Assembly: GCA_947066815.1 (NCBI GenBank)
Contig: CAMSZT010000032.1
Span: 1 to 36,714 of the forward strand
DNA: 36,714 bases
DNA from: an uncultured Lachnotalea sp.
GTDB lineage: Bacteria; Bacillota; Clostridia; Lachnospirales; Lachnospiraceae
Reading direction: 5' to 3'
Below are positions 2,747-35,344 of the stretch, in pieces; position 1 is the stretch's first letter; the number at the start of each line of letters is the position of its first letter. The position numbers and the translations under genes are program-made. The notes under the pieces were generated by a model that was given only the letters and a program-made list of their open reading frames with translations, was not told the origin of the DNA and ran no database searches.

Positions 2747-2773
2747 CGCTGTCCGGAGAAAGGATAAGGGGCG

Positions 2774-14955: not shown

Positions 14956-16365
14956 ATGAGGCAGGAAAACAGGCGCCCGGGGGCGTCAGGCGGGACGGAC
15001 ATCGGAACGATCGTAAAGAAACAGAGGGAGTATCAGGCTCTCGGGGGAACAGGATCCCTGGTTTTCCGGCTGGATGTGCTGGATAAACTGGGGCTGGAGA
15101 TCCGGAAACGGGAGGACAGGATCCGGGAGGCCCTGAAGGCAGACCTGAATAAATCAAGATTTGAATCCTATATGACGGAGACGGGGCTGGTGCTCTCCGA
15201 GATCAGCCATATGAAGCGGCATCTGAGAAGTTATGCCGGGAAAAAACGGCATATGACTCCACTGGCACAGTTCCACGGGAAGAGCTTCACGATGCGGGAG
15301 CCTTACGGGGTGGTCCTGATCATGTCCCCCTGGAATTATCCCTTTATGCTGTGCATCGAGCCGCTGGTGGGGGCGATCGCGGCGGGGAACTGCTGTGTTT
15401 TAAAGCCCTCGGCCTACGCGCCGGCCGTCTCCGCGGTCATCAAGGAGCTGATCGGAGCGGTGTTCCCTCCGGAATATGTCGCGGTGGTGGAGGGAGGCCG
15501 GGAAGAGAATGAGGCTCTTTTGGAGCAGCGGTTTGATTACATCTTCTTTACCGGCGGCGTGAAGGTGGGGAGGCTGGTCATGGAGAAGGCCGCCCGCCAC
15601 CTGACTCCGGTGACCCTGGAGCTGGGAGGGAAAAGCCCCTGCATCATCGACGAGACGGCAGATCTAAAGACGGCGGCAAAACGCCTGGCCTTCGGGAAGT
15701 TCCTGAATGCGGGACAGACCTGTGTGGCGCCGGATTACCTCCTCATCCAGGAGCAGGTGAAAGAGCCTTTTTTAGAGATTTTTGAGAAGACCGTGGAACA
15801 GATGTACGGGGAGGAGCCCCTGGAGAACCCGGACTATCCGAAGATCATAAATGAAAAACATTTTGACCGGATAAGCGGGCTTTTGGAGGGGACGGCGCCC
15901 CGGACCGGCGGGAAAAGGGACCGGGAAACCTTAAAGATCGCTCCGACTGTGCTGGATCTTCAGACGGCGGAGGCTCCCGTTATGCAGGAGGAGATCTTCG
16001 GCCCGGTGCTTCCGGTGCTCACCTTCCGGGAGATCAAGGAGGCGGAGAACTTTGTGCGGGAGCGGGAGAAGCCCCTGGCCTGCTATATCTTCACCAAAAA
16101 CCGGGCCACGGAGCGGCGTCTCCTCTCCTCCCTGAGCTTTGGCGGCGGCTGCGTCAACGACACCGTCATCCATCTCGCCACCTCCCGCATGGGCTTCGGC
16201 GGCGTGGGGATGAGCGGGATGGGGAGCTATCACGGAAAGAAGAGCTTCGAGACCTTCAGCCACGAAAAGAGCATTGTGAAGAAATACAACTGGATCGATC
16301 TGCCGATCCGCTACCAGCCCTACACGGAGAAGAAGGAACGGCTTCTGCGGTTCTTCCTCAAGTGA
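14956..16365 (+). CDS. NAD(P)-dependent aldehyde dehydrogenase (class 3 type)
   Basis: This 469-residue enzyme oxidises aldehydes to carboxylic acids with NAD(P)+. It has the class-3 signature SPWNYPF, the Rossmann segment FFTGGVKVGR, the general-base glutamate in LELGGKSP and the nucleophilic cysteine in NAGQTC. The C-terminal FGGVGMSGMGSYHGKKSFETFSH follows. The length matches short class 3 / fatty-aldehyde dehydrogenases. I chose ATG 14956 because AGGAGG lies six bases upstream; ATG 14908 would add 16 residues without a better site. The substrate cannot be told from sequence; aliphatic aldehydes are typical for the class. Confidence 0.9.
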   Translation: MRQENRRPGASGGTDIGTIVKKQREYQALGGTGSLVFRLDVLDKLGLEIRKREDRIREALKADLNKSRFESYMTETGLVLSEISHMKRHLRSYAGKKRHMTPLAQFHGKSFTMREPYGVVLIMSPWNYPFMLCIEPLVGAIAAGNCCVLKPSAYAPAVSAVIKELIGAVFPPEYVAVVEGGREENEALLEQRFDYIFFTGGVKVGRLVMEKAARHLTPVTLELGGKSPCIIDETADLKTAAKRLAFGKFLNAGQTCVAPDYLLIQEQVKEPFLEIFEKTVEQMYGEEPLENPDYPKIINEKHFDRISGLLEGTAPRTGGKRDRETLKIAPTVLDLQTAEAPVMQEEIFGPVLPVLTFREIKEAENFVREREKPLACYIFTKNRATERRLLSSLSFGGGCVNDTVIHLATSRMGFGGVGMSGMGSYHGKKSFETFSHEKSIVKKYNWIDLPIRYQPYTEKKERLLRFFLK

Positions 16366-16405
16366 TGACAGAGGGGCAGGTGCGCAAACTCAGGGTGCAG
16401 AGGGA

Positions 16406-16434
16406 TTGAAAGCGGAGTCCTTTTGTGATATTAT
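16406..16434 (+). promoter_or_regulatory. Promoter of the envelope gene block
   Basis: TTGAAA (16406-16411) and TATTAT (16429-16434) are 17 bases apart. Transcription would start near 16441, giving a leader of about 150 bases that contains repeat element 2. Confidence 0.6.
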
Positions 16435-16474
16435 CTTTTATGTTGCAGAGAAGCACATTTCAAACGGCCCCTCG

Positions 16475-16524
16475 GGGATATTCCGGCGCTGCAGGCTTTG
16501 GACGGACATATGCCGGAATATTCC
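16475..16524. repeat. Palindromic intergenic repeat, element 2 (short)
   Basis: GGGATATTCCGGC (16475-16487) pairs with GCCGGAATATTCC (16512-16524), 12 matches plus one G-U. Between them lies the core shared with element 1 (26 identical bases, 16486-16511). It sits in the leader of the sulfatase-like gene. Confidence 0.75.
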
Positions 16525-16590
16525 TTCGATCGATTTCACCTTTCGCGGTTACCTGGGAGCTTTTTACAGGATGGGAGGACAGAGGATTTC

Positions 16591-18339
16591 ATGGATACCG
16601 GAAGAGAAAAACTGAGAGCCCTGTGGCAGGATAAACGTCCCTGGAGGATCCGTCTGCCGCTGGCGGCGCTCTGCGCCTTTGCCTGTGTATTTACCTTCCT
16701 GATCTTCGGTCCCTGTGAGATCTATGCCCAGAATGCCCAGGAGATGACGTTTCCCTTTTCGGTCCTTCTGCGGGGACTGCTTGGCGTCGCGGCGCTCGTT
16801 TTTGCGGCGCTGTTCGGGATCCTGATCCTTTTACGGGGGAAGGTCTTTAACCTTGCGGTCAGTTTTCTTTTTGCGGTGACGCTGGCCGGGTATCTGCAGG
16901 GGAATTTCTGGAACACCGACCACGGGGCTCTGACCGGGGATGCGGTAAACTGGCTGCGATATAAAGTCCCCATGCTCGTAAACGGCGCCGCCTGGCTGTG
17001 CGTGTTTGCCGCCGTATTCCTTCTGCTGTATTTCAGCCGCAGGATGTGGACAAGAGCGGTCAGGCTGATCTGTGTGGTCCTGGTCGGCGCGCAGCTGGTG
17101 GCGCTCCTGTCCTTGACCATGGGGAGCGGCTCCTATCGGCTCTGGAGGGCCGGGCGGGAGAAGGAAGGGCTCACGAGGGACGGCATTTATGAGGTATCCG
17201 GGAAGAAAAATGTGATCGTGTTCCTGATGGACCGTCTAGACAACCAGTATATGGACGCGGCGCTGGAGAAATATCCGGAGCTGGAGGAAGGGCTTGGCGG
17301 TTTCACCTATTACCATGATTTTACCGGCAGCTACGCCAATACCAGGCCGTCGATCGCCTATCTGCTGACCGGCGTCCAACATGACTATACGGTCCCCTGG
17401 GACGATTATTTCCACAAAGCGTGGACGGAGCCTGTCTACACGCTGCTGCCGGATATCCACGAGGCCGGTTATCAGACAAAGGTCTATACAGACTGCGGGT
17501 ATGTGTTCGGGGCGCCGGAGGACGTGAGCGGCTTTGTGGATAACGTCCGTGAGATCGGCAAAAAGAAGGTCCGGAAGGGGCCGATGCTCGAGAAAATGCT
17601 GGATCTGTCCTTTTACCGATATACTCCCGAGTCGATGAAGCCTTATTTTCAGATCAGTACTTCGGACCTGAACGGCATCGCGGTGTCGGAGGATGAGGCC
17701 GGGGCTGACCGGCTGTTTTCGGTGGATGACGCCGCTTTCTGGAGCGGCTACCGGGAGAATGGGCTGACCGTGGGAGAGGAGGGGAAGGGTTCCTTTCTTT
17801 TTTACCATCTGAACGGCGCCCACGATCCCTTTACCATCGACGCGGACGCGGAGCCTGCCCCCGGAGGGAGCACCAGGGAGGAGCAGATCCTCGGGAATTT
17901 CCGGATGATCTTCCGGTATATGGAGGAGCTTAAGGAGAAGGGTCTCTATGAGGACGCCACCATCATCATCACGGCGGACCACGGCCGTCCGCCCAAGCCG
18001 ACGGGCGATCTGAGCGGGATCAGCGAGAGCCGGGTGAGTACACTGATGATCAAACCTGCCGGGGAAGGGGCCGAAGGCCCCATGAAGATCTCCAACAAGC
18101 AGGTGTGCCAGGACAATCTGCGGGCCTCCATCGCCGGTTATTTCGGGCTGGACACCGGCGCGTATGGCCGGACGGTGGAATCCGTCGGGGAGCATGAGCA
18201 GATGACCAGGATCCTGTGGATGCGGACGGAGGGAAAGGGAGAGAAGAAACTGTATACCTTCGAGATCAGGGGGGACGCCAACGATTTCTCCAACTGGAAG
18301 GTGATCGGGGAGATCAAGATGCAGTATACCGGTATATAG
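16591..18339 (+). CDS. Sulfatase/LTA-synthase-like membrane phosphotransferase
   Basis: The 582-residue protein has four to five N-terminal membrane helices (to about residue 185) and a large extracytoplasmic alkaline-phosphatase-superfamily domain. The domain shows the metal aspartate in VIVFLMDRLDN, the nucleophile region YANTRPSIAYLLTG and the metal pair ITADHGRP. This architecture is shared by LtaS-like and phosphoethanolamine-transferase-like enzymes that move phospho-alcohol groups from lipids onto envelope polymers. ATG 16591 lies behind GGGAGGACAGAGG; a longer frame from 16498 would start inside repeat element 2 and is unlikely. It heads a block with teichoic-acid and choline genes, which supports an envelope role; the exact donor and acceptor are unknown. 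Confidence 0.8.
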   Translation: MDTGREKLRALWQDKRPWRIRLPLAALCAFACVFTFLIFGPCEIYAQNAQEMTFPFSVLLRGLLGVAALVFAALFGILILLRGKVFNLAVSFLFAVTLAGYLQGNFWNTDHGALTGDAVNWLRYKVPMLVNGAAWLCVFAAVFLLLYFSRRMWTRAVRLICVVLVGAQLVALLSLTMGSGSYRLWRAGREKEGLTRDGIYEVSGKKNVIVFLMDRLDNQYMDAALEKYPELEEGLGGFTYYHDFTGSYANTRPSIAYLLTGVQHDYTVPWDDYFHKAWTEPVYTLLPDIHEAGYQTKVYTDCGYVFGAPEDVSGFVDNVREIGKKKVRKGPMLEKMLDLSFYRYTPESMKPYFQISTSDLNGIAVSEDEAGADRLFSVDDAAFWSGYRENGLTVGEEGKGSFLFYHLNGAHDPFTIDADAEPAPGGSTREEQILGNFRMIFRYMEELKEKGLYEDATIIITADHGRPPKPTGDLSGISESRVSTLMIKPAGEGAEGPMKISNKQVCQDNLRASIAGYFGLDTGAYGRTVESVGEHEQMTRILWMRTEGKGEKKLYTFEIRGDANDFSNWKVIGEIKMQYTGI

Positions 18340-18340
18340 C

Positions 18341-18375
18341 GGTAACGGCCGATGCCGGCGGCATTGGCCGTTGCC
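18341..18375. repeat. Long perfect hairpin between envelope genes
   Basis: 18341-18356 pairs with 18360-18375: 16 positions including two G-U, with a three-base GGC loop. No T-run follows. It may stabilise the upstream message or attenuate read-through to the next gene. Confidence 0.7.
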
Positions 18376-18404
18376 TGATATTACTTGATAAGGAGATGTT
18401 TGCC

Positions 18405-18980
18405 ATGAGGAAGGTAGCTTCCTTTCTGTACTTTTTTGTCTGTGCTTCGTTTCTTTTTTCCGTGACGGCGCTGGCCTACATCGACCCCTCGGCCATGACC
18501 TACATCATCCAGATCATTGCCGGCGTGGCGATCGCGGCCGGAGCGGCCTTCGGCTTCTATTTCCGCAAGCTACGGAGGCGGTTTTCCCGCTTCGGGAGAA
18601 AGAAGGAGAGTGTCGTCTCCTATGAGGACGATATGGACGACGACGATACGGGCCTTGGCGACTATGAGATCGAAGGATTTGCCGGGGCATCCTCGGAGAC
18701 GGCGGCCTCCTATGCCGGGGGACCTTCCGGGGCGGCTCCTTTTGCCGGAGAATCTTTCGGGGCGGCCTCATCTGCCGGGGAGACTGCGGCGGCCTTTTCC
18801 TCTGTCCGGGAGCCGGCCTTTGGGTCCCGGACGGCAAAGGCAGATCCCTACGACGAGACCGGAGGAGAGGGGGGCCTTGCCGCGGAAAACAGGGAGCTGA
18901 GGCGGCTTTTGGCAGAGGAGCGCCGGAATGTGGAGGAGTTAAAGCGGGCGCTGCACATCTGCACGGCCCCCAGGCGGTGA
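18405..18980 (+). CDS. YIDPS-type small membrane protein with Ala/Gly repeat tail
   Basis: The 191-residue product starts at ATG 18405, nine bases after AGGAG. A signal-like helix (residues about 5-24) ends in ALAYIDPSAMTY, a motif I associate with small membrane proteins beside sulfatase-like envelope genes. A second helix (IIQIIAGVAIAAGAAFGFYF) leads to a basic stretch KLRRRFSRFGRKK, an acidic segment and four imperfect roughly 10-residue repeats (FAG/YAG/SAG units, 18678-18797). A short coiled coil ENRELRRLLAEERRNVEELKRAL closes it. The function is unknown; topology suggests a cytoplasmic coiled-coil tail on a membrane anchor. Its end overlaps the signal peptidase start (GTGA). Confidence 0.7.
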   Translation: MRKVASFLYFFVCASFLFSVTALAYIDPSAMTYIIQIIAGVAIAAGAAFGFYFRKLRRRFSRFGRKKESVVSYEDDMDDDDTGLGDYEIEGFAGASSETAASYAGGPSGAAPFAGESFGAASSAGETAAAFSSVREPAFGSRTAKADPYDETGGEGGLAAENRELRRLLAEERRNVEELKRALHICTAPRR

Positions 18981-19486
18981 GACGCCGGGGACGTCTGCTG
19001 ATCCCGCTGGCGGCGGTCCTCCTGGCGGCGCTCCTGAATGGTTTTTTCCTCCTGAACGCCTATGTGCCCTCCGGCTCTATGGAGCCGGCCATCCCCTCCG
19101 GTTCCATGGTCCTGGGAAACCGCCTGGCTTACCGCCGGAGCGCGCCGGAGGCAGGCGACGTGATCTTTTTCCGCCGCCTGGAGGCGGGGGAGAGGCGGTG
19201 CCTGGTCAAGCGCGTCATCGCCGTGCCGGGCCAGACATTTGCCCTCCAGGAGGGCAGAGTGTACATCGACGGGCAGCTTCTGGAAGAGGACTATGTGGAG
19301 CGCTTCTCCGGCGACGACTATCCGGAAACTTTTGTGCCGGAGGGCTGTTATATCGTTCTGGGGGATAACCGGACGGAGTCCGGGGATTCCCGCTTTTGGG
19401 AGGATCCTTTTGTCCGCAGAGAGGATATCCTGGCCAGAGGCATGTTCGTTTATTTTCCAAAATTTTACAGATTGCTGAGGGATTGA
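18977..19486 (+). CDS. lepB: Signal peptidase I (small)
   Basis: This 169-residue protein is a type I signal peptidase, which cleaves signal peptides from exported proteins at the outer face of the membrane. One N-terminal helix (residues 7-28) precedes the catalytic serine S34 in PSGSMEP and the catalytic lysine K78 in LVKRVIA. The box GDNRTESGDSRFW and C-terminal GMFVYFPK are also present. It starts at GTG 18977, overlapping the previous stop. Its place between the YIDPS protein and the YidC fusion suggests a cluster-specific peptidase rather than the general housekeeping one. Confidence 0.92.
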   Translation: MRRRGRLLIPLAAVLLAALLNGFFLLNAYVPSGSMEPAIPSGSMVLGNRLAYRRSAPEAGDVIFFRRLEAGERRCLVKRVIAVPGQTFALQEGRVYIDGQLLEEDYVERFSGDDYPETFVPEGCYIVLGDNRTESGDSRFWEDPFVRREDILARGMFVYFPKFYRLLRD

Positions 19487-19487
19487 T

Positions 19488-21560
19488 ATGAAGCTGATCA
19501 ACACCGTCGTGGGGGTGCCTCTTGGCTGGCTGATGTGGGCGTGCTACCAGGTCTTTTGCCATTACGGCCTGGCCCTGATCCTGTTCACGCTGCTTACCAA
19601 GGCCGTCATGTTCCCCATATCCCTGCTGGTACAGAAAAATTCCATCAAGATGGTCCGGATGAAGCCGCAGCTGGACGCCCTGCGCTACCAGTATGTGGAT
19701 GACAAGGACGCGTTTATCGACGCCCAGTCGGCGCTCTATAAAAAAGAACACTACAGCCCCATGGCGGGGGTCTGGCCGCTCCTTCTGCAGCTCCCGATCA
19801 TCTTCGGGCTGCTGGACGTGGTCTATAAGCCCTTAAAGCACATCCTGCACCTTGCGGCCCCGCTCCAGAACGCCTTTGTGGAGAAGACGGCGGAGCTTCT
19901 GGGGACCGCTGTGGGAGATCTGGGGACGACGGCCCAGCTGGCCGCGGTGGAACAGATCCGACGCGCTCCGGACGCCTTTCTGGCGATCCCGGGGGCGGGG
20001 GAGGCCGTCGCCGCGGTCCAGGGGATGCGCCTGGATCTTTTTGGCCTCGACCTCACAAAGACGCCGAGCCTCCTTACGGCGGATGCCCTGCTGCTGATCC
20101 CGCTCCTGGCGGGGGTGTCGGCGTTTCTCATGTGCTTCGTCCAGAACAAGATCAATGTGCTGCAGATCGAGCAGAATAAGCTCTCCCAGTGGGGCATGAC
20201 AGTCTTTATGATCGCCTTTTCCGGCTTCTTTGCCCTGATCGTCCCCGCGGCGGTGGGCCTCTACTGGATCTTCGGCAACCTGTTCTCCATCGGGGTCACC
20301 TATCTGGTGAACGTGGTCTATCCTCCGCAGAAATACATTGATTACAAGGCCCTGAAGGAGATGAAGCAGTCTGCCGCCGAGGAGCAGGCCAAAAAGAAGA
20401 AGAACGCTGTCCTGGCGAAGAAATATTATAAGCAGTTCTTCGAGCCGGAGAACGCAAAAAATATGAAAGTGATGTTCTACTCCGAGGGGAGCGGCTTTTA
20501 TAAATATTTCCGGAGGCTGATCGAGGCGCTCCTCAAGGATACGGACCTGACGATCCATTATGTGACCAGCGATCCTGAAGATGCCATTTTTCAGAAAAAC
20601 GAGCCCAGGATCCGGCCCTACTATGTGGACGAGACCCGCCTGATCCCGCTGATGATGAAGCTGGAGGCGGATATCGTGATCATGACCACGCCGGATCTGG
20701 AGAAATACCACATCAAGCGGTCCAGAGTCCGGAAAAATGTGGAATATATCTTCATGGATCACGGCTGCTCCAGCGACAATCTGGCCTACCGGACCGGCGC
20801 CCTCGACGCCTATGACACGCTCCTCGTGGTCAGCAGGGAGCAGGCCATCGAGGCCCGCGCCATTGAGAAGCTGCGCCACACCAAGAGAAAGCGCATTGTG
20901 GAGTGCGGCTACGGGCTGATCGACGACATGATCGATGCCTACGAGGCCATGGACAAGGTGGAAAATCCGAAAAAGACGATCCTCATCGCGCCGTCCTGGC
21001 AGTATGACAACATCATGGATTCCTGCCTGGACGATCTGGTCGGGGCTCTGTACGGAAAAGGCTACCGGATCATCATCCGCCCCCATCCCCAGTATGTGCG
21101 CCGCTTCCCCTTGCAGATGAAGGGGGTCATGGAGCGCTACCGGGACAGGATGTCGGAGGACTTTGTGATCGAGACGGATTTTTCCTCCAATGTGACGGTG
21201 TATACGGCCGACCTGGTGATCACGGACTGGAGCGGCATCTCCTTTGAGTTTTCCTTTACGACGGACAAGCCCTGCCTCTTCATCAATACGAAGCTAAAGG
21301 TGGTCAACGAGGATTATCAGAAGATCCCGCTGGTGCCCTTTGACATCACGGCCAGGTCCAAGGTGGGCCGCCAGGTGGAAAAGAGCGAGGTGAAGGACCT
21401 GGCTCCTGTGGTGGAGGAACTGCTTAGTAACCAGGAAGAATATCGGGAGCGGATCGTCGCCCTGAAAAAACAGCATTTTTACAATCTGGGACACAGCGGG
21501 GAGGTGGCTTCCCGGTATATCCGCCATCGGCTCTCCAGGCGGTATGGCCGGACAATTTGA
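19488..21560 (+). CDS. YidC/Oxa1 insertase fused to CDP-glycerol glycerophosphotransferase-like domain
   Basis: The 690-residue product combines two families. Residues 1 to about 300 are YidC/Oxa1-like: GLALILFTLLTKAVMFP with K38 near the usual groove arginine, then PMAGVWPLLLQLPIIFGLLDVVY, and late helices ending AAVGLYWIFGNLFSIG. After a lysine-rich linker (about 300-325), residues about 325-690 resemble TagB/TagF-type CDP-glycerol glycerophosphotransferases. They show IFMDHGCSSDN, IIIRPHPQY and ITDWSGISFEFSFTTDKPCLFIN, corresponding to the HG, RPHP and D-S/G-S motifs. The reading frame is continuous, with no stop or shift at the junction. The C-terminal half would be cytoplasmic. The teichoic/choline neighbours suggest polymer extension coupled to membrane insertion. 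ATG 19488 follows the signal peptidase stop by one base. Confidence 0.85.
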   Translation: MKLINTVVGVPLGWLMWACYQVFCHYGLALILFTLLTKAVMFPISLLVQKNSIKMVRMKPQLDALRYQYVDDKDAFIDAQSALYKKEHYSPMAGVWPLLLQLPIIFGLLDVVYKPLKHILHLAAPLQNAFVEKTAELLGTAVGDLGTTAQLAAVEQIRRAPDAFLAIPGAGEAVAAVQGMRLDLFGLDLTKTPSLLTADALLLIPLLAGVSAFLMCFVQNKINVLQIEQNKLSQWGMTVFMIAFSGFFALIVPAAVGLYWIFGNLFSIGVTYLVNVVYPPQKYIDYKALKEMKQSAAEEQAKKKKNAVLAKKYYKQFFEPENAKNMKVMFYSEGSGFYKYFRRLIEALLKDTDLTIHYVTSDPEDAIFQKNEPRIRPYYVDETRLIPLMMKLEADIVIMTTPDLEKYHIKRSRVRKNVEYIFMDHGCSSDNLAYRTGALDAYDTLLVVSREQAIEARAIEKLRHTKRKRIVECGYGLIDDMIDAYEAMDKVENPKKTILIAPSWQYDNIMDSCLDDLVGALYGKGYRIIIRPHPQYVRRFPLQMKGVMERYRDRMSEDFVIETDFSSNVTVYTADLVITDWSGISFEFSFTTDKPCLFINTKLKVVNEDYQKIPLVPFDITARSKVGRQVEKSEVKDLAPVVEELLSNQEEYRERIVALKKQHFYNLGHSGEVASRYIRHRLSRRYGRTI

Positions 21561-21570
21561 GAGAAGACCA

Positions 21571-21599
21571 TTGACATTTGCGCCAAAAAGGAATATGCT
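21571..21599 (+). promoter_or_regulatory. Promoter of the choline/nucleotidyltransferase operon
   Basis: A perfect TTGACA (21571-21576) and TATGCT (21594-21599) are separated by 17 bases. Transcription would begin near 21606, about 72 bases before ATG 21678. Confidence 0.8.
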
Positions 21600-21611
21600 T
21601 ATCTATGTCGT

Positions 21612-21632
21612 CCCCCGCCGGATCGGCGGGGG
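21612..21632 (+). promoter_or_regulatory. G+C-rich hairpin at the extreme 5' end of the message
   Basis: CCCCCGCCG (21612-21620) pairs perfectly with CGGCGGGGG (21624-21632) around a GAT loop. It begins only about six bases after the predicted transcription start and has no T-run, so it may act as a 5' stabiliser or regulatory leader rather than a terminator. Confidence 0.65.
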
Positions 21633-21677
21633 CAGCTTTATGGCAGCTTGTTCACGAAAAATGGAGAATAAAGTTAT

Positions 21678-23438
21678 ATGAACATTTGGGAGAGCGATGT
21701 CCTGCGCAGACTGTGGGAGAGGCCCTATGTGAACCAGAGGATCCTGGCGGAAGCCTGCGGCTTTTCTCTGGGGATGGCAAACCGGTGCTTAAAGAACCTG
21801 AAAGAGGAGGGCTATCTGGACGAAAGCTTCCGGCTGACAAAACGGGCGGAGGATGAGATCCTTGCGCGGAGGCCGAGAAATGCCGTGATCTTGGCGGCGG
21901 GCTTCGGGATGCGCATGGTCCCCATCAATATGGAGGTCCCGAAGGCGTTCCTGGAGGTAGAGGGGGAGGCGCTGATCGAGCGGATCATCCGGCAGCTCCA
22001 TGAGGCGGGCATATCGGAGATCTATGTGGTGGTCGGGTATATGAAGGAGCGGTTTGACTGCCTGATCGACCGCTTCGGCGTCCGGCTGATCGTCAATCCG
22101 GATTACGCGGTCAAAAATAACCTCTGCTCCCTGAGGAGGGTGGAAAAGTATCTGGCAAATACCTACATAGTCCCCTGCGACATCTGGTGCGCCGAAAATC
22201 CCTTCAGCGCCTGTGAACTATATTCCTGGTATATGGTGAGCGACCGGAAGGAGGAGGGCAGCCCGGTCCGCGTAAACCGTAAAGCAGAACTGGTCACGGT
22301 TCCGGAAGATGAGAAGGGGAACGCCATGGTGGGGATCTCCTATCTTTTGGAGGAGGACGCGGGGCGGCTGAAAAAACAGATGGGATCCCTTCTTGGAAAA
22401 AAGGGCGGGGAGAGCCTGTTCTGGGAGGCTGCCCTCTGGGACAGGGGGAAGATGACCGTCCGGGCGCGGACCGTGCGGAAGGAAGCGGTGGCGGAAATCA
22501 ATACCTATGAGCAGCTTCGGGAGCTGGACGGGAATTCCAGCCAGCTGCAGTCGGATAAGCTGCAGGCGGCCGCGGCCGCCCTCGGCGTTTCCATGGAGGA
22601 GATCACCGGCATCCTGGCGCTGAAAAAGGGGATGACGAACCGCTCCTTCCTCTTTTCCTGCAGAGGGAAGGCGTACATCATGCGCGTTCCGGGGGAGGGG
22701 ACGGGACGGCTGATCGACCGCAGGGAGGAAGCGGCGGTATACCGGGTGGTCCGGGGAAAGGGCATCTGCGAGGACGTCATCTCCATCGATCCGGACACCG
22801 GCTATAAGGTTTCCCATTTTATCGGGGACGCCAGGACCTGCGACCCGGAAAACCCGGTGGAGACCGCCGCCTGCATGAAAAAGCTGCGGGAGTTTCACGG
22901 ACTTTCGTTAAAGACGGACCACGAGTTTGACCTTTTCGGGCATATCGATTTCTATGAGTCCCTGTGGGATGGGCGTTCCTCCGCTTATGAAGACTACCGG
23001 CAGACGAAGGCGCATGTGTGGGCCCTGCGCCCCTTTATCGAAGGGCAGGCGGGGGAGAGGGCGCTGACCCACATCGACGCGGTGCCGGATAACTTCCTGC
23101 TTTTTGAGAATGGGAAAGGGGAGGAGGAGATCCGTCTCATCGACTGGGAATACGCGGCCATGCAGGATCCCCATGTGGACATCGCCATGTTCTGCATCTA
23201 CTCCCTGTATGACCGGGAACAGGTCGACCGGCTCATCGGGCAGTACTTTACGGAAGGATGCCCCGAGGGGACGAGGATCAAGATCTACTGCTATATCGCG
23301 GTCTGCGGACTGCTCTGGAGCAACTGGTGCGAGTACAAGCGGAGTCTGGGAGTCGAATTCGGAGAATATTCCCTGCGCCAGTACCGCTATGCGAAAGATT
23401 ATTACCGCATCGCGGCGGAGGCGATCGGGATCAGATAA
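21678..23438 (+). CDS. Winged-helix / LicC-like nucleotidyltransferase / LicA-like choline kinase fusion
   Basis: This 586-residue protein has three parts. Residues 1 to about 66 form a winged-helix-like domain (NQRILAEACGFSLGMANRCLKNLKEEGYL). Residues about 68-285 are a sugar-phosphate-type nucleotidyltransferase, with ILAAGFGMRM (71-80) and the lysine of VPKAFLEV, similar to LicC, which makes CDP-choline from CTP and phosphocholine. Residues about 300-586 are a choline/ethanolamine kinase (LicA type), with the catalytic loop H465-I-D467 through N472 and DWEYA (D489). One chain could therefore phosphorylate choline and activate it. It heads an operon with a second nucleotidyltransferase and a BCCT transporter. 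The winged helix may bind DNA and autoregulate, or be structural. Choline rather than ethanolamine is inferred from context. Confidence 0.85.
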   Translation: MNIWESDVLRRLWERPYVNQRILAEACGFSLGMANRCLKNLKEEGYLDESFRLTKRAEDEILARRPRNAVILAAGFGMRMVPINMEVPKAFLEVEGEALIERIIRQLHEAGISEIYVVVGYMKERFDCLIDRFGVRLIVNPDYAVKNNLCSLRRVEKYLANTYIVPCDIWCAENPFSACELYSWYMVSDRKEEGSPVRVNRKAELVTVPEDEKGNAMVGISYLLEEDAGRLKKQMGSLLGKKGGESLFWEAALWDRGKMTVRARTVRKEAVAEINTYEQLRELDGNSSQLQSDKLQAAAAALGVSMEEITGILALKKGMTNRSFLFSCRGKAYIMRVPGEGTGRLIDRREEAAVYRVVRGKGICEDVISIDPDTGYKVSHFIGDARTCDPENPVETAACMKKLREFHGLSLKTDHEFDLFGHIDFYESLWDGRSSAYEDYRQTKAHVWALRPFIEGQAGERALTHIDAVPDNFLLFENGKGEEEIRLIDWEYAAMQDPHVDIAMFCIYSLYDREQVDRLIGQYFTEGCPEGTRIKIYCYIAVCGLLWSNWCEYKRSLGVEFGEYSLRQYRYAKDYYRIAAEAIGIR

Positions 23439-23453
23439 GGAGGACAAAAGAAA

Positions 23454-24164
23454 ATGAGCAGGGTGGCGCGGGCTATTATCGTCGCGGCGGGGAGGGGGAC
23501 ACGGATGTATCCGGTCACCTGCAAAACCCCCAAGCCGCTGGTCAGGGTAGGCGGCGTCCGCATGATCGACACGATCATACGAGGGCTTGAGGAAAACGGG
23601 ATCTCGGAGATCCATATCGTAGTCGGGTATCTGAAGGAACAGTTTGAGGCGCTCACGGAGGAGTATCCGGGCGTGAGCCTGATCGAGAACCCTTACTACG
23701 CAGAATGCAATAACATTTCGTCCCTGTACGCTGCCAGAGAGTACCTGGAAGATGTGATGATCCTGGACGGAGACCAGGTGATCCGCTGTCCGAAGGTGCT
23801 GTCTCCGGAATTTGAACGGTCCGGCTACCAGGCCGTCTGGACGGACACCCACACGGACGAATGGCTTTTGACCGTGCGGGGAGGGCTGGTCGCCTCCTGC
23901 AGCAGGACCGGAGGCGCGGGAGGATGGCAGCTCTTCAGTGTCTCACGCTGGGACAAGGAAGACGGAAGACGGCTTCGGAAACACCTGGAGGCCGAGTTTG
24001 AGGAGAGACGGAACCGCCAGATCTACTGGGATGACATCGCCCTGTTCCGATACCCGCAGGAGTACCGTCTGGGGATCTTTCCGATGGAGCCGGGGGACAT
24101 TTTGGAAGTAGACAGTCTGGAGGAACTGGCACAGCTGGATTCCAGCTATCAAAAATATTTATGA
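23454..24164 (+). CDS. LicC-like CTP:phosphocholine cytidylyltransferase family protein
   Basis: The 236-residue product is a stand-alone nucleotidyltransferase. It has IIVAAGRGTRMYPVTCKTPKPL (the nucleotide loop and lysine), a VVGYLKEQFEAL strand-helix, ENPYYAECNNISSLY and the metal site MILDGDQVI. The ECNNISSLY segment is like LicC-type cytidylyltransferases and similar to NNLCSLRR in the fused enzyme upstream. AAGGAGG lies before ATG 23454. The gene is 15 bases after the fusion gene and overlaps a possible start of the BCCT gene. Two nucleotidyltransferases in one operon suggest two substrates (for example choline and another phospho-alcohol or sugar) or a division of labour. Confidence 0.8.
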   Translation: MSRVARAIIVAAGRGTRMYPVTCKTPKPLVRVGGVRMIDTIIRGLEENGISEIHIVVGYLKEQFEALTEEYPGVSLIENPYYAECNNISSLYAAREYLEDVMILDGDQVIRCPKVLSPEFERSGYQAVWTDTHTDEWLLTVRGGLVASCSRTGGAGGWQLFSVSRWDKEDGRRLRKHLEAEFEERRNRQIYWDDIALFRYPQEYRLGIFPMEPGDILEVDSLEELAQLDSSYQKYL

Positions 24165-24178
24165 CGGGAGGAGACCAT

Positions 24179-25720
24179 ATGAAAGGATACAAGGATGACG
24201 GAAACGGAAAGAGGCAGATCGACTGGGCCATTTTTCTGGTGCCCCTGGCGGCGGTTGTGATACTCAGCGTGCTGTTTGCATGTTTTCCCGCAAGATCCCA
24301 GGAGGTCCTCGGCACAGTCCGCTCTTTCTTCGGGGATACCCTGGGGGTCTTCTACCTGGCCGTGGGCCTGGGCGTGTTTCTCGTCTCCCTGTTTGTGGCC
24401 GCCTCCCGGTACGGGAAGATCGTTCTGGGCGATCCAGGAGAAAAGCCGAAGTTTTCTTTTTTCGCCTGGGGCTCCATGATGTTCACGGCGGGGCTGGCGG
24501 CGGATATCCTGTTCTATTCCTTTTCCGAGTGGGTCATGTACGCCGCGGATCCCCATATCGCAGAGCTTGGGAGCATCCAGGACTGGGCCAGCGTCTATCC
24601 CGTTTTCCACTGGAGCCTGATCCCCTGGGGCTTTTACCTGATGCTGGCGGCGGCCTTCGGCTTTATGCTCCACGTCAGGAAGAGGAAGCGGCAGAAATAC
24701 TCCGAGGCGTGCCGGCCGATCCTGGGGAAGTACACCGACGGCGCGGCGGGCCGGTTCATCGACCTGTTGGCGGTGTTTGCCCTCCTGGCGGGAACGGCCA
24801 CCACCTTTGCGCTGGCGACCCCTCTGATGGCCAGTATCCTGGAAAAGCTGTTCCACATCCAGATGGACCGGAGGGTGATCACGGTGGCGATCCTCCTGGT
24901 CACCTGCACGGTATACACTTACTCCCTGCTCCACGGGTTTAAGGGGATCAGCATCCTGGCAAAATCCTGCATCTACCTCTTTTTCGGCCTGCTGGCCTAT
25001 GTACTGCTCTTTGGCGGGGAAGCCAGGTATATCATCGAGACCGGATTCTCCTCCCTGGGAAGGATGGTCCAGAATTTCTTTGAGCTCTCGACCTTCACGG
25101 ACCCGGAGCGGGCGACCTCCTTTCCGCAGAACTGGACCATCTTCTACTGGTCCTACTGGATGGTCTGGTGCGTCGCGGCCCCCTTCTTTATCGGAAGCAT
25201 TTCCAGGGGGAGGACCATCCGCCAGACCATCCTGGGCGGCTATGTGTTCGGCGTGGGGTCGACCATCGTAAGCTTTGTGGTCCTGGGGAATTATTCTCTG
25301 GGGAAGCAGGTCCTGGAGGGGGTGGACTTTATCGCGGTCTACCGGCAGAGCGGCGACCTCTACAGCCTGATCCTCTCCATAATCGACACACTCCCCTGGG
25401 CGGGGTTCGTGCTCCTGCTGGTCCTGGTGACGATGATCGCCTTCTATGCGACCTCCTTTGACTCGATCGCGCTGATTGCCTCCTGCTACAGCTACCGGGA
25501 GCTTGGGGAGGACCAGTCTCCCCACCGGGCCGTGGAGCTGGCCTGGTGCCTGCTGCTGATCACCTTCCCCATCGCCCTTGTGTTTTCGGAAAGTTCCATG
25601 AACAATCTGCAGTCGGTCAGCATCATCGCCGCCTTTCCGATCGGGATCGTCATCCTTCTGATCATCGCCGGCTTTTTCAAAGACGCGGCCGCATATCTGG
25701 AGAAGCGGCCCGGACCGTAA
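24179..25720 (+). CDS. BCCT-family choline/betaine/carnitine transporter
   Basis: The 513-residue protein has about twelve membrane helices and the marks of the BCCT family, which imports quaternary ammonium compounds. These are WGSMMFTAGLAADILFYSFSEW, a variant of the family's glycine-rich signature, and the tryptophan-rich segment FYWSYWMVWCVAAPFFIGSISRGRTIRQ. I chose ATG 24179 behind GGGAGGAG; ATG 24161 overlaps the previous stop and would add six residues. Next to choline kinase and cytidylyltransferase domains, choline is the most likely substrate, making it the functional counterpart of the importer in lic loci. The altered signature (AGLAAD rather than GMGIG) leaves coupling ion and substrate open. 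Confidence 0.88.
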   Translation: MKGYKDDGNGKRQIDWAIFLVPLAAVVILSVLFACFPARSQEVLGTVRSFFGDTLGVFYLAVGLGVFLVSLFVAASRYGKIVLGDPGEKPKFSFFAWGSMMFTAGLAADILFYSFSEWVMYAADPHIAELGSIQDWASVYPVFHWSLIPWGFYLMLAAAFGFMLHVRKRKRQKYSEACRPILGKYTDGAAGRFIDLLAVFALLAGTATTFALATPLMASILEKLFHIQMDRRVITVAILLVTCTVYTYSLLHGFKGISILAKSCIYLFFGLLAYVLLFGGEARYIIETGFSSLGRMVQNFFELSTFTDPERATSFPQNWTIFYWSYWMVWCVAAPFFIGSISRGRTIRQTILGGYVFGVGSTIVSFVVLGNYSLGKQVLEGVDFIAVYRQSGDLYSLILSIIDTLPWAGFVLLLVLVTMIAFYATSFDSIALIASCYSYRELGEDQSPHRAVELAWCLLLITFPIALVFSESSMNNLQSVSIIAAFPIGIVILLIIAGFFKDAAAYLEKRPGP

Positions 25721-25759
25721 AGAGAAGTCTCAAAATACAGACCTCCAGAGAAGAAGTGG

Positions 25760-25788
25760 TTGCCATATTCAGTAAAAAAGTGTATGCT
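25760..25788 (+). promoter_or_regulatory. Promoter of the TIM-barrel-like gene
   Basis: TTGCCA (25760-25765) and TATGCT (25783-25788) are 17 bases apart, about 50 bases before ATG 25837. Confidence 0.65.
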
Positions 25789-25836
25789 TATAACAATTGT
25801 ATGGACCATTGCATCAAAAACAAGGAGGATTTGCCC

Positions 25837-26517
25837 ATGGGAGAAAAAAAATATATACCGGTGATCGAGGGGCATCTCAGGAGTCACATGGTGCTTTTGC
25901 CGGAGGTGATCGAGGAGGTGAGCGGGATCCGCATTTTCGGGAAGCTGATTAAATCTCTGGTCTTCACGACCGATATCGCGATCATCCGCAACTGCAACGC
26001 CAATGCGGTCATGGCGGTGTATCCCTTTACGCCGCAGCCCATCATCACCCACGCGCTGATCACCTCGTCGGACCTCCCGGTCTTCTGCGGGGTAGGGGGC
26101 GGCACCACCACGGGGAAACGGGTGACCAGCCTGGCGGAGGACGCCGAGTTCCAGGGCGCTCACGGGGTTGTCGTGAATGCGCCGACTCCCAACGAGACGC
26201 TGGAATATTTACGGAAAAAAGTGGAGGTTCCCATCGTGATCACGGTGGTGTCGGAGAAGACCGATATCGGGAAACGGCTGGAGAGCGGCGCTTCGATCCT
26301 CAATGTGTCGGGAGCGGAGAAAACGCCGGAGATCGTGGCGAAGATCCGGAGGGATTTTCCGGAGGTGCCCATCATCGCCACCGGGGGGAACACGGAAGAA
26401 AGCATCAAAAAAACGATCGATGCGGGCGCCAACGCCATTACTTACACTCCGCCCACCAACGGCGAGATATTCAAAGACATGATGAACAAATACCGGCAGG
26501 AAAAATATATCATCTGA
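25837..26517 (+). CDS. Conserved TIM-barrel-like protein, often annotated hydrolase; function unknown
   Basis: The 226-residue product belongs to a family I recall as conserved in Firmicutes with only a generic label. Repeated beta-alpha units are visible: VFCGVGGGTTTGKRV, GVVVNAPTPNE, VPIVITVVSE, SILNVSGAEKTPEIV, VPIIATGGNTEES and GANAITYTPPT. The late GGN and GANAITYT segments resemble phosphate-binding ends of TIM barrels such as PdxS/ThiG-like or phosphoribosyl-binding proteins. AAGGAGG lies nine bases before ATG 25837. It has its own promoter and runs convergently into lspA with only 12 bases between stops and no clear terminator. No function is assigned. Confidence 0.75.
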   Translation: MGEKKYIPVIEGHLRSHMVLLPEVIEEVSGIRIFGKLIKSLVFTTDIAIIRNCNANAVMAVYPFTPQPIITHALITSSDLPVFCGVGGGTTTGKRVTSLAEDAEFQGAHGVVVNAPTPNETLEYLRKKVEVPIVITVVSEKTDIGKRLESGASILNVSGAEKTPEIVAKIRRDFPEVPIIATGGNTEESIKKTIDAGANAITYTPPTNGEIFKDMMNKYRQEKYII

Positions 26518-28049: not shown

Positions 28050-29075
28050 TTATATAAGCGTCCGGACCGTGTCGCCGTCATGGAAGAAGGCGGGGAGGCG
28101 GAAAACCCGCTTCGGGAGCCTGCCCTCCGTTTCGATCCGCTCCAGGATCAGGCGGGCGAGCCGGTCCCCCATCTCCTCCAGATTTGTCTCCATATAAGTG
28201 GGGGAGAGGTACAGATGATCCATCTCGTGACGGTTGCCGATGGTGGCCACGGAGATGTCCTGGGGGATGCGGATCCGGCTGTCATTGCAGTATTTCAAAA
28301 CGCCCTTCATCATCTCGTTGTTGGCGACAACGAGGGCGGTGGGGCTTAGGGCAGCGTCCAGGTGGAGCATGGAATCGGCGGCCGCATAACCGCTGGATAT
28401 GTCGAAAGCGCTCTCGCAGACCAGGGGGCTCGACTCGTCCATGTGGATCCCGATGGCCGACATGGCCGCCTGGTATCCCCGGAAACGCTCCGTGGAGACA
28501 TCCAGGTTGTAGGGGCCGTTGATGATGCCGATCCGCCTGTGGCCGTTTGCGATCAGGTGGGAGGTGAGCATGTAGGCGGCCGCATGATTGTCACTGTCCA
28601 CGAAATCCCCGATAAACTCCGGATCCGCAATGTCATTTCCGGAAAGCACGACGGGGATTTTTTTGCTGAGTCTCAGGATGGCCTGGGTATTGGTGCAGGA
28701 ATTTAAGATGGCGCCGTCGATCTTCTGCATGGAGATAAAACGTAAGATAGCGGCTTCCTTGGCAGGATCGCCGTTGGTGGCGAAGAGCATCATGGAATAG
28801 TTGTATTCCCAGAGGACACTCTGGATGGCAGCCATCAAAAAGGTAAATACGGTATTCCGGATATCCGTGACCACATAGCCGATGATGTGGGACCGTTCCG
28901 TTTTCAGGCTGCTGGCGAGGCTGTTGGGGGAATATTCCAGTTTGTCGATGGCCGCCTGCACGATCCTGGCGGTCTCCGGCCTGACCGGGCCGCTGGAATT
29001 TAAAACACGGGAGACCGTGGCGACAGAAACGCCTGCCTCCGCGGCGACGTCTTTGATGGTTAGATTCTTTTTGAT
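28050..29075 (-). CDS. LacI-family transcriptional regulator with apparent AUC start
   Basis: This protein of about 341 residues has the LacI helix-turn-helix LTIKDVAAEAGVSVATVSRVLN, hinge helix NSLASSL and a periplasmic-binding-like ligand domain. The expected N-terminus is M-K-K-N-L, but the codon at the first position is ATC (29075-29073). A perfect GGGAGG lies six bases upstream of that ATC. No ATG, GTG or TTG occurs in frame nearer than 29252, which lies upstream of the promoter. The protein is otherwise intact. Either AUC is used, giving low expression, or the start codon was lost. It is divergent from the Liv/amidohydrolase operon, which it probably controls through the TGTAA-type operators between them. 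Confidence 0.85.
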   Translation of the reverse strand: MKKNLTIKDVAAEAGVSVATVSRVLNSSGPVRPETARIVQAAIDKLEYSPNSLASSLKTERSHIIGYVVTDIRNTVFTFLMAAIQSVLWEYNYSMMLFATNGDPAKEAAILRFISMQKIDGAILNSCTNTQAILRLSKKIPVVLSGNDIADPEFIGDFVDSDNHAAAYMLTSHLIANGHRRIGIINGPYNLDVSTERFRGYQAAMSAIGIHMDESSPLVCESAFDISSGYAAADSMLHLDAALSPTALVVANNEMMKGVLKYCNDSRIRIPQDISVATIGNRHEMDHLYLSPTYMETNLEEMGDRLARLILERIETEGRLPKRVFRLPAFFHDGDTVRTLI

Positions 29076-29111
29076 AAGGCACCTCCCGAATAAAAAAATC
29101 CCAATAAAAAA

Positions 29112-29123
29112 TGTAACGTTACA
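29112..29123. promoter_or_regulatory. LacI-type palindromic operator at the lacI-family promoter
   Basis: TGTAACGTTACA is a perfect 12-base palindrome with a central CG, as LacI-family operators have. It begins about seven bases downstream of the regulator's -10, so binding would repress the regulator's own gene. Confidence 0.75.
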
Positions 29124-29129
29124 GTGACG

Positions 29130-29158
29130 ATTATATTTGTTTTTCCAAAAGAAAACAA
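29130..29158 (-). promoter_or_regulatory. Promoter of the LacI-family gene
   Basis: On the minus strand TTGTTT (29158-29153) and TATAAT (29135-29130) are separated by 17 bases. Confidence 0.75.
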
Positions 29159-29232
29159 GATTGAATTGAATAATAATTGAGATTTGTGCAAGACATATAA
29201 AAATGGCATAAAAATATTGTGTAAAATACCAA

Positions 29233-29261
29233 TTTACAACAATGAAATGCAAAGATATAAT
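29233..29261 (+). promoter_or_regulatory. Promoter of the Liv/amidohydrolase operon
   Basis: TTTACA (29233-29238) and TATAAT (29256-29261) are separated by 17 bases. Predicted transcription start is near 29268, inside the operator at 29263-29277. Confidence 0.8.
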
Positions 29262-29262
29262 A

Positions 29263-29277
29263 ATGTAAACGGTTACA
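29263..29277. promoter_or_regulatory. cre-like / LacI-family operator over the operon start site
   Basis: A-TGTAAACGGTTACA fits the CcpA cre consensus WTGNAANCGNWNNCW at every position. It also shares the TGTAA/TTACA half-sites and central CG of the palindrome at 29112. It overlaps the +1 region, so binding should repress the operon. CcpA, the adjacent LacI-family protein, or both could bind. Confidence 0.7.
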
Positions 29278-29343
29278 ATAAATGGTCATTCCGTTACACA
29301 ACAACTACAGTTCAGCACAAACAATTTAAGAGGAGGAAACGTA

Positions 29344-30564
29344 ATGAAAAAAATCAGACGGATCGTTGGTATGGTTTCCGGCCTGGCATTGATCGTATCG
29401 CTGGCAGCAGGATGCGGGAGCGGCGGCGGAACGGAGACGAAGGCCGAGACAAAAGCGGAGACGAAGGCGGCGTCGGAGGACGGCACGGAGGCGGCCGGAG
29501 GAGAAGAAAGCTCCTCGGATTCCATCAAGATCGCCCTCTACGGGCCCCTCACAGGAAACAATGCCCAGTACGGGCTGACCTACCAGGCGACCATCAACGC
29601 CCTCTGCGAGAAGGTGAACGCGGAAGGCGGGATAAACGGAAGGGATGTCGTGGTGGAGGTGTTCGACGACAAGAACGATCCCAAGGAGGCCTTGAACGTG
29701 GCGAACCTGATCGTGTCCGATCCCGAGATCGTCGCGGTGATCGGAAGCCAGACCTCCTCGCCGACCTTGGCGGCGGCTCCCGTCTTTGAGGAGGCGGGGC
29801 TTCCCATGATCACCCCCCAGGCTTCCCACGTGGATATCACCCCGACCGGCGGGCATATTTTCTCCATCTCCTGCCTTGCCACCTTTGAGGGCGGTGTGAT
29901 TGCACAGCGGATGATCGAGGACGGTTATAAAAAAGTCGCGGCGATCTATGCCAACGACGATTACGGACTCAACATCATCGAGCGGTGGAAATCGGATGTG
30001 ACGGACGCCGATCTGGAGATCGTGGATGTGGAAGAATATATTTCCGGGCAGACCTCCGACTTCACGCCCCTTCTCTCCAAGATCAAAGAATCGGGGGCAG
30101 AGGCCCTCTATATCGTACCTTCCTATGCGGACGCGGCCATGATCTGCACCCAGATGGAGCAGCTGGAGATGGGAAATGTCCAGAAATACGCCTGCTCCAT
30201 GTGCTACACGGATTCCTTCCTGGAGGCGGCCGGCGAGTCGGCAGAAGGAACGAAGGTCTGCAATTTCATCTATCCGGAGACGACGGACGAGACCTTCCTT
30301 GCACTGAAGGAACTCCTCGGTGAGAAGACCAGCATGGAGAACATCGACGTCTACGCGACCAACTCCCATGACGCATTCATGCTCCTGGTGGACGCCATGA
30401 AGGAAGTGGGGACCGACGGAGATGCCATAGCCCAGTGGCTCACGGATGTAAAAGACTGGCCCGGAGCCTGCGGCCCCATCACCTTTGACGAGACCAGGCA
30501 TCCGGACAAGCAGCTCTTCTGGTTCCAGGTGGAAGGCGGACAGTTCAACTATCTCGGCCAGTGA
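29344..30564 (+). CDS. livK: Liv-type ABC transporter substrate-binding lipoprotein
   Basis: The 406-residue precursor has a lipoprotein signal ending LAAGC (cysteine about residue 24). A low-complexity ETKAETKA linker leads to a type I periplasmic-binding fold: IKIALYGPLTGNNAQYG, GGINGRDVVVEVFDDKNDP, EIVAVIGSQTSSPTLAAAP and later KKVAAIYANDDYGL. This is the LivK/urea/amide-binding family. It would capture the substrate outside the cell for the LivHMGF transporter below. AGAGGAGGAAA precedes the ATG. The family binds branched-chain amino acids, urea, short amides and more, so the ligand is not assigned; the two amidohydrolases suggest something hydrolysable. Confidence 0.85.
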   Translation: MKKIRRIVGMVSGLALIVSLAAGCGSGGGTETKAETKAETKAASEDGTEAAGGEESSSDSIKIALYGPLTGNNAQYGLTYQATINALCEKVNAEGGINGRDVVVEVFDDKNDPKEALNVANLIVSDPEIVAVIGSQTSSPTLAAAPVFEEAGLPMITPQASHVDITPTGGHIFSISCLATFEGGVIAQRMIEDGYKKVAAIYANDDYGLNIIERWKSDVTDADLEIVDVEEYISGQTSDFTPLLSKIKESGAEALYIVPSYADAAMICTQMEQLEMGNVQKYACSMCYTDSFLEAAGESAEGTKVCNFIYPETTDETFLALKELLGEKTSMENIDVYATNSHDAFMLLVDAMKEVGTDGDAIAQWLTDVKDWPGACGPITFDETRHPDKQLFWFQVEGGQFNYLGQ

Positions 30565-30590
30565 CCGGGCGGCAGGACAGAATGACAGAT

Positions 30591-30663
30591 AATTGCGAAA
30601 CGTGAGATTGCGGGAATATTCTGGCAATAGTAAGCTTTGGATGAACATATTGTCAGAATATTC
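30591..30663. repeat. Palindromic intergenic repeat, element 3
   Basis: GAATATTCTGGCAATA (30614-30629) pairs with TATTGTCAGAATATTC (30648-30663), 15 matches plus one G-U. The left flank AATTGCGAAACG (30591-30602) resembles the outer arm of element 1, and the loop keeps GCTTTGGA and ACATATTGTCAGAATATT. It lies between the binding-protein and first amidohydrolase genes inside the operon. Confidence 0.7.
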
Positions 30664-30690
30664 GACGATGATAAAAAAGGGAGAGAATTT

Positions 30691-31857: not shown

Positions 31858-31864
31858 ACCCCCG

Positions 31865-31891
31865 GTACGGCGCTGCGAAGCGGCGCCGTAC
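31865..31891. repeat. Hairpin between amidohydrolase and livH
   Basis: GTACGGCGC (31865-31873) and GCGCCGTAC (31883-31891) pair perfectly with a nine-base loop. No T-run follows. It could mark an RNA-processing or attenuation point that sets the ratio of binding protein to permease. Confidence 0.65.
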
Positions 31892-31926
31892 TATATGACA
31901 GAAAAGAAATAAGGAGGATGTCCCGG

Positions 31927-32805: not shown

Positions 32806-32819
32806 GGAGGGAGACGCAC

Positions 32820-35331: not shown

Positions 35332-35344
35332 GAGGAACAAGACT

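Follow-up and report, generated by a model that had tools for sequence, protein, structure and literature searches.

Why a membrane protein of the YidC/Oxa1 family should be joined to a TagF-like glycerophosphotransferase domain is the question raised by a gene of an uncultured Lachnotalea sp. The gene lies in the window, which is the whole stretch of 36,714 nucleotides that was analysed (contig CAMSZT010000032.1, C32 of its genome), together with the following neighbours:

16498..18339, + strand: LtaS-like sulfatase-superfamily membrane enzyme, 613 aa (Pfam Sulfatase 34.8 bits, cut-off 25)
18405..18980, + strand: small YIDP-motif membrane protein, 191 aa (likely start; the mechanical ORF runs from 18216)
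18977..19486, + strand: signal peptidase I, 169 aa (Peptidase_S26 117.7 bits; TIGR02227 115.1 bits, cut-off 47)
19488..21560, + strand: YidC-TagF-like fusion protein, 690 aa (Pfam, NCBIfam, AlphaFold model, related loci)
19488..20342, + strand: YidC/Oxa1 domain of the fusion, aa 1-285, groove residue K38
20463..21479, + strand: TagF-like domain of the fusion, aa 326-664; H425 and H533 match TagF H444 and H584
21678..23438, + strand: winged-helix (wHTH), nucleotidyltransferase and choline-kinase-like protein (LicC-LicA-like), 586 aa (Pfam)
23454..24164, + strand: second nucleotidyltransferase, LicC-like, 236 aa (NTP_transf_3 53.1, NTP_transferase 45.6 bits)
24161..25720, + strand: BCCT choline/betaine transporter, 519 aa (Pfam BCCT 407 bits)

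The answer to which we incline, with confidence a little short of even, is that the 690-residue protein forms the inner half of a machine for headgroup delivery.

Reality and distribution of the fusion

YidC/Oxa1 (aa 26-275) and TagF-like (aa 323-664) modules are joined within a single frame of 690 residues, and the fusion is confirmed as real. The uninterrupted frame claimed in the sequence-only reading is borne out by Pfam, by an AlphaFold model and by 80 related loci, of which three belong to isolates (R. inulinivorans, R. flavefaciens and Bittarella), and the same two-domain order recurs in seven further genomes of the window's family. Most of the 80 listed relatives come from metagenome-assembled genomes, as would suit an assembly or frame error that had merged two genes; such an artefact is nonetheless refuted, with a residual chance that is practically nil, because the identical join occurs in the three isolates and throughout the 80 kept loci, and the frames are uninterrupted in the seven other family genomes.

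The fusion is present in 8/200 genomes of the window's family and in 5/391 genomes of its class (own genome included in both), the class search giving seven further matches that are YidC-only, and, in the family to which a Treponema MAG belongs, in 2/195 genomes including the MAG itself. A scan of genome contigs yielded at least 561 relatives, the 481 beyond those kept possibly including unfused ones; the 80 kept each align from residue 1-12 to residue 677-690. An origin on a phage or plasmid was rejected: no record of a plasmid covered 80% of the query in a tblastn search, the viral contig scan confirmed no relative, and the three phage-collection records that do cover 80% are short unannotated human-faecal scaffolds. 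One of these, an 8.2-kb "Bacteriophage sp." human-faecal scaffold (L038, MT836947.1), carries the fusion at 1114-3213 together with aminoethylphosphonate (AEP) genes, and since its fusion is nearly identical to a protein of Roseburia inulinivorans DSM 16841 the scaffold is in all likelihood bacterial DNA.

The TagF-like domain and the adjacent headgroup genes

The C-terminal part of the protein belongs to the TagF/TarL family by profile (55.2 bits to PF04464, Glyphos_transf, cut-off 22.1) and by its histidines, and has the TagF fold in an AlphaFold model, its donor use and any polymerase activity being putative. Residues H444 and H584 of TagF, which we take to be catalytic, are retained as H425 and H533 in 60/60 fusions.

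The genes that follow the fusion point to the donor. The 586-residue protein matches LicA-like kinase and LicC-like cytidylyltransferase models (HTH_24 29.7, NTP_transf_3 52.1, APH 49.1 and Choline_kinase 46 bits, all above cut-off), the 236-residue protein matches nucleotidyltransferase models, and with the transporter gene they make the window's cassette one of choline type as judged from predicted enzyme substrates. The winged-helix DNA-binding domain of the first enzyme, found also in L087, looks as if it regulated its own operon.

The generality of this linkage was assessed in 91 loci (the window, seven family genomes, three phage-collection scaffolds and 80 genome-contig loci), with modules called against fixed references at E 1e-8 and half coverage, and in twenty 20-kb control regions of six related genomes, taken from contigs that also carry a fusion or YidC-sulfatase locus. 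Clustering gave the sulfatase, the nucleotidyltransferase/choline kinase, a small membrane protein and signal peptidase I as recurrent neighbours. A headgroup activation or import module was recognised in 53/91 fusion loci and 0/20 control regions, a strong contrast whose size is no measure of probability because the controls are few random stretches rather than other surface-gene clusters and the loci are related, some being near-duplicates (e.g. L038 and L081), so that the counts are not independent. The 53 comprise choline kinase/BCCT (25, the mixed locus L087 tallied here), AEP importer-like (10), CobD-like (9), phosphonate synthesis (6) and AEP transaminase only (3). A recognised nucleotidyltransferase is also present in 43 of them; it stands alone in 4/91 loci, and 34/91 have no module at all. 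The BCCT transporter itself is found in 18/91.

Several related loci appear to serve other headgroups. L035 encodes a PhnW-AepZ protein (460.5 bits, NCBIfam cut-off 360.8), a PEP mutase (418.4 bits, cut-off 319.55) and a phosphonopyruvate decarboxylase (466.6 bits, cut-off 312.5). The ABC transporter of some loci was considered as a choline importer and this was dropped: in L053 and L056 its best NCBIfam matches are to the importers of 2-AEP (PhnS2, PhnU2 and PhnT2), all scoring under their cut-offs. Nucleotidyltransferase proteins of about 600 residues end in a class I/II PLP domain in 6/10 examined (L031 6884-8689, L033 5714-7576, L069 12175-13980, L076 12338-14155, L091 13721-15529 and L095 12221-14029), and for the three compared with NCBIfam CobD is the best match at 119 to 181 bits against a cut-off of 290.55. 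The PLP domain would be a phosphoserine decarboxylase giving CDP-ethanolamine, and the whole protein perhaps a one-protein route from phosphoserine to CDP-ethanolamine. In L084 (14495-16321) the nucleotidyltransferase is fused to an iron alcohol dehydrogenase beside a PEP mutase and decarboxylase, which suggests hydroxyethylphosphonate as the product, in the form of CMP-hydroxyethylphosphonate. On a tree of 49 labelled fusion proteins (24 of choline type, 16 of AEP synthesis or import and 9 CobD-like), one that carries a long-branch warning, module type clusters (0/200 shuffles as low), yet nine changes are needed; the clustering and the changes together argue for one kind of machine with several headgroups, presumably activated as CMP esters.

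These neighbours bear on the idea, put forward in the sequence-only reading, that polymer elongation is physically tied to a membrane insertase, the protein then being a CDP-glycerol or CDP-ribitol polymerase of teichoic-acid synthesis. Its Glyphos_transf family and TagF fold and its LtaS-like neighbour would suit such a polymerase. However, the neighbouring genes resemble makers of CDP-choline in the window and of donors of CMP-AEP type in relatives, and the family match is distant, another TagF-type protein elsewhere in the window's genome scoring 206 bits to the family model against 55 for the fusion; YidC-tied elongation thus appears quite improbable.

The YidC domain, the housekeeping YidC and LicD

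The first part of the 690-residue protein, read at the outset as a YidC/Oxa1 core, is of that family and fold by profile search and AlphaFold model alike: residues 1-285 score 121.8 bits against PF02096 (cut-off 35), the fusion scores 115.2 bits against TIGR03592 (cut-off 84.3), and the N-terminal domain of the model adopts the YidC fold. Superfamily membership is therefore assigned, with insertase activity putative. The groove residue K38 likewise stood up, the position being K in 59 and R in one of 60 fusions. A separate housekeeping YidC had been expected elsewhere and was found on contig C43 of the same genome, in the order rpmH-rnpA-yidD-yidC-jag (presumed names, given from sequence motifs in the ORFs); a non-fused YidC is additionally present in 11/11 other fusion-bearing genomes searched. 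One housekeeping YidC (G135:C89:26255-27218) is split across two overlapping frames, either truly or by assembly error.

LicD is the usual phosphocholine transferase. It was sought in the genomes of 37 among the 53 loci with a module (24 of choline type, 9 of AEP import, 3 of phosphonate synthesis and 1 with the AEP transaminase), and was present in 12/37, 8/24 of choline type among them, and not found in 25/37, including 16/24 of choline type, in a set that leaves aside the CobD-like type and the G-handle genomes and consists mostly of MAGs that may be incomplete. The window's genome has two LicD genes (PF04991, contigs C50 and C11), which weakens the argument from LicD absence there, and contig C32 itself gives no PF04991 match; two CDP-alcohol phosphatidyltransferase genes are also present in the genome. 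LicD domains inside very long frames were noted at G606:C99:20733-21404 and G604:C78:5184-5852 (1438 and 1848 aa).

The failure to find LicD in the 25 genomes is in keeping with a simpler reading, in which YidC only tethers a cytosolic headgroup transferase that substitutes for LicD and decorates undecaprenyl-linked glycan or teichoic-acid precursors, to be carried across by an ordinary flippase. The headgroup modules and donor logic fit this equally well, and canonical TagF is itself membrane-associated. Yet the YidC part is conserved like the catalytic domain, with a mean top-residue share of 0.65 and 0.67 against 0.63 for the TagF part, and this, with the groove K/R in 60/60, exceeds the needs of a mere anchor. 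A tethering role is accordingly an unlikely but serious contender, and one under which a LicD-independent phosphocholine/AEP transferase family would still be new with respect to the papers searched.

The sulfatase, the YIDP protein and the signal peptidase

The block of genes described in the sequence-only reading, with a small signal peptidase and a sulfatase-like enzyme, is as stated, both being recognised by Pfam and lying 5' of the fusion gene. That reading was supported in part, and its suggestion that the YidC fold serves as a membrane or lipid-moving partner is still plausible; it missed the wide spread of the fusion, the recurrence of the sulfatase and YIDP protein, and a second architecture, YidC-sulfatase.

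The window's sulfatase has no NCBIfam match and, as a single sequence, no PDB match, whereas a profile of 48 sequences finds S. aureus LtaS as best PDB match (E 1.4e-8) in the C-terminal part only. The superfamily and membrane layout are clear: five hydropathy TM segments precede a fold that matches over residues 235-613 in an AlphaFold2 model of pLDDT 90.4 and pTM 0.87, the highest Z being that of hydrolytic sulfatases and the top Foldseek match PbgA, while LtaS and MCR-1 rank lower. D245, H442, D494 and H495 are conserved in 48/48 and T282 in 47/48; by analogy T282 would be the nucleophile and D245, D494 and H495 metal ligands, and the enzyme probably acts as an outside transferase. At the cut-off used it occurs in 65/91 fusion loci and also in 2/20 control regions.

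The small protein has no Pfam match in the window and belongs to a family conserved among the loci. Its YIDP motif with a TM helix, a pattern composed after the family had been inspected, is found in 75/91 fusion loci, 6/10 loci of the second architecture and 0/20 controls; signal peptidase I is found in 33/91. Both frequencies would favour a dedicated insertase, as would the YidC fold with its groove K/R: YidC would then insert or fold the YIDP protein or the sulfatase of the operon, the signal peptidase trimming the former. Against this, fusion to a transferase or a sulfatase is left unexplained and a separate YidC was found in 11/11 genomes, and two features of the second architecture, given below, also speak against it; a dedicated insertase is distinctly unlikely.

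Promoter-like sites in 16200-26000 are within chance (3 found, 3.8 expected) and terminator-like sites number 17 against 8.9 expected. Farther along, at 28050-36493, the window encodes a LacI-type regulator, transport components (a periplasmic binding protein, an ABC ATPase and two permeases of branched-chain type) and a pair of amidohydrolases; this set of genes for transport and hydrolysis has no obvious connection with the fusion cassette.

A second architecture

Ten genes in eight genomes (200 family genomes and the regions around the loci) encode a YidC domain fused to a sulfatase with further membrane helices. The first two score 40.7 bits to Sulfatase (L142) and 23 against the cut-off of 25 (L141), and those beyond were identified by their BLAST similarity to L142. 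In 7/10 the gene lies next to a TagF-like one, with no such neighbour in 3/10; a headgroup module is present in 5/10 (three with choline kinase plus nucleotidyltransferase, one CobD-like and one for phosphonate synthesis) and is lacking in 5/10. The TagF-like proteins of these loci start with a segment such as YIDPGTGSMLF and a membrane helix, and profile comparison relates this segment to the window's small protein (94% probability, E 1.1e-7); in L165, the seventh such locus, a different residue precedes the YIDP motif. As far as these domain assignments reach, the same four modules thus occur in two fusion states: YidC-TagF with a separate sulfatase and YIDP protein, and YIDP-TagF with YidC-sulfatase.

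N238, D245, T282, H442, D494, H495 and K519 are present in 10/10 YidC-sulfatases, and the groove position is N instead of K/R in 10/10, which argues against a strict need for charge there. This N, and the incorporation of the YIDP segment into the TagF-like enzyme, are the two features that count against a dedicated insertase, and the presence of YidC on an outside enzyme that has its own helices, and hence needs no anchor, counts against simple tethering. YidC domains of YidC-sulfatases form a separate clade, with housekeeping YidCs (14 rows) between both fusion types. Two separate recruitments of YidC are favoured by the tree, a single origin of both fusions having been disfavoured at AU p 0.026 with long branches and with groups chosen after the first tree.

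A proposed model of headgroup delivery

The delivery reading can be set out as a sequence of steps. Enzymes of the adjacent genes would make CDP-choline in the window, or CMP-aminoethylphosphonate and perhaps CDP-ethanolamine in relatives. The cytosolic TagF-like domain, whose donor is suggested by gene context, would move the phospho- or phosphono-headgroup onto a membrane lipid with CMP leaving, and the YidC fold would carry or scramble the headgroup-lipid to the outer leaflet. Outside, the LtaS-like enzyme would take up the headgroup on a threonine and pass it to a polymer or glycan of the cell surface. The small YIDP protein may have a structural or coupling part in the machine, and the signal peptidase of the operon perhaps trims it. 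Counting against this order of steps are the fusion loci in which no module or no sulfatase was recognised, the sulfatase matches in two controls, the N at the groove of YidC-sulfatases, the YidC-sulfatase loci that lack a TagF-like neighbour or a module, and the LicD and CDP-alcohol phosphatidyltransferase genes of the window's own genome.

The topology is in accord with this order. YidC C-termini are cytosolic, which places the TagF-like domain inside, and the sulfatase domain, following membrane helices, should be outside. That YidC is joined to the inner enzyme in one architecture and to the outer enzyme in the other is what would be expected of a step between them. With a CMP-donor transferase inside and, outside, an enzyme whose superfamily includes transferases that use lipids, the simplest such step would be that a headgroup linked to lipid crosses the membrane. 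Passages of a preprint report in vitro lipid scrambling by YidC of E. coli and by Oxa1 and Get1 of yeast, as a general insertase feature (PMC10491306); a dedicated scramblase is therefore not obviously needed. It is possible, and is proposed here at somewhat less than even confidence, that evolution has, probably on two occasions, turned the YidC fold into the lipid-translocating part of a new class of transmembrane machine, one that brings phosphocholine, aminoethylphosphonate or phosphoethanolamine from cytosolic CMP-activated donors to an outside transferase and replaces LicD-type chemistry in many Clostridia. If true, this would give a biological job to the lipid scrambling measured in YidC/Oxa1 proteins and add to the Oxa1 superfamily a role besides protein insertion; it would also fill in a transfer step that is missing from the tailoring of bacterial cell surfaces with phosphonates, and would predict which Clostridia bear phosphocholine or AEP on their surface, both being of interest in host recognition.

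Relation to known systems

The fusion sequences are not new, presumably standing in databases under automatic names; the reading of them as a system is new as judged from the open PMC papers searched. Among the hits listed, titles and abstract openings hold nothing on a YidC-TagF or YidC-sulfatase protein, the portions of PMC6381275 that matched doing so on words only, in unrelated places. YidC, glycerophosphotransferase and sulfatase do not occur in the main text of PMC6697681, nor do YidC, glycerophosphotransferase, TagF, sulfatase, "Clostridi" or fusion in that of the ChoP gene survey PMC10434233.

According to passages of PMC6697681, the Pnt phosphonate cytidylyltransferase pathway (Ppm, Ppd, AEPT and PntC) forms CMP-AEP, and the tailoring steps that follow the C-P bond are called enigmatic. 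Related fusion clusters share with it PEP mutase, decarboxylase, AEP transaminase and nucleotidyltransferase; its neighbours in those passages are instead LicD-like phosphotransferases or glycosyltransferases (PMC6697681).

Among insertases, the fusion shares family, fold and groove residue with YidC/Oxa1 proteins and differs in that it exists in addition to the housekeeping YidC, is joined to an enzyme and is set within a block of headgroup genes. With TagF/TarL polymerases it has in common the fold, the catalytic histidines and an expected CMP-linked donor, but it is fused to YidC, its contextual donor would be CDP-choline or CMP-AEP, and it scores 55 bits to the family model. The lic-1 phosphocholine pathway consists of LicA, LicB, LicC and LicD, and here too choline-type transporter, choline-kinase-like and LicC-like genes adjoin a candidate transferase; the window's cassette differs in having YidC-TagF as that candidate, a BCCT transporter and an added LtaS-like enzyme. 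The cassette sulfatase shares membrane helices and an outer domain with LtaS, EptA/MCR and PbgA-type enzymes and, by analogy, the Thr and metal-ligand set; it differs in having D245 at the position of a Glu in LtaS, and its family is distinguished by the fusion of a YidC domain in some relatives. CsbB-GtcA-YfhO is a three-component system of exoplasmic glycosylation, and if the model holds the cassette would be alike in layout, with an inside transferase to lipid, a small flippase and an outside transferase, although the protein families are presumably unrelated and phospho-headgroups rather than sugars would be conveyed.
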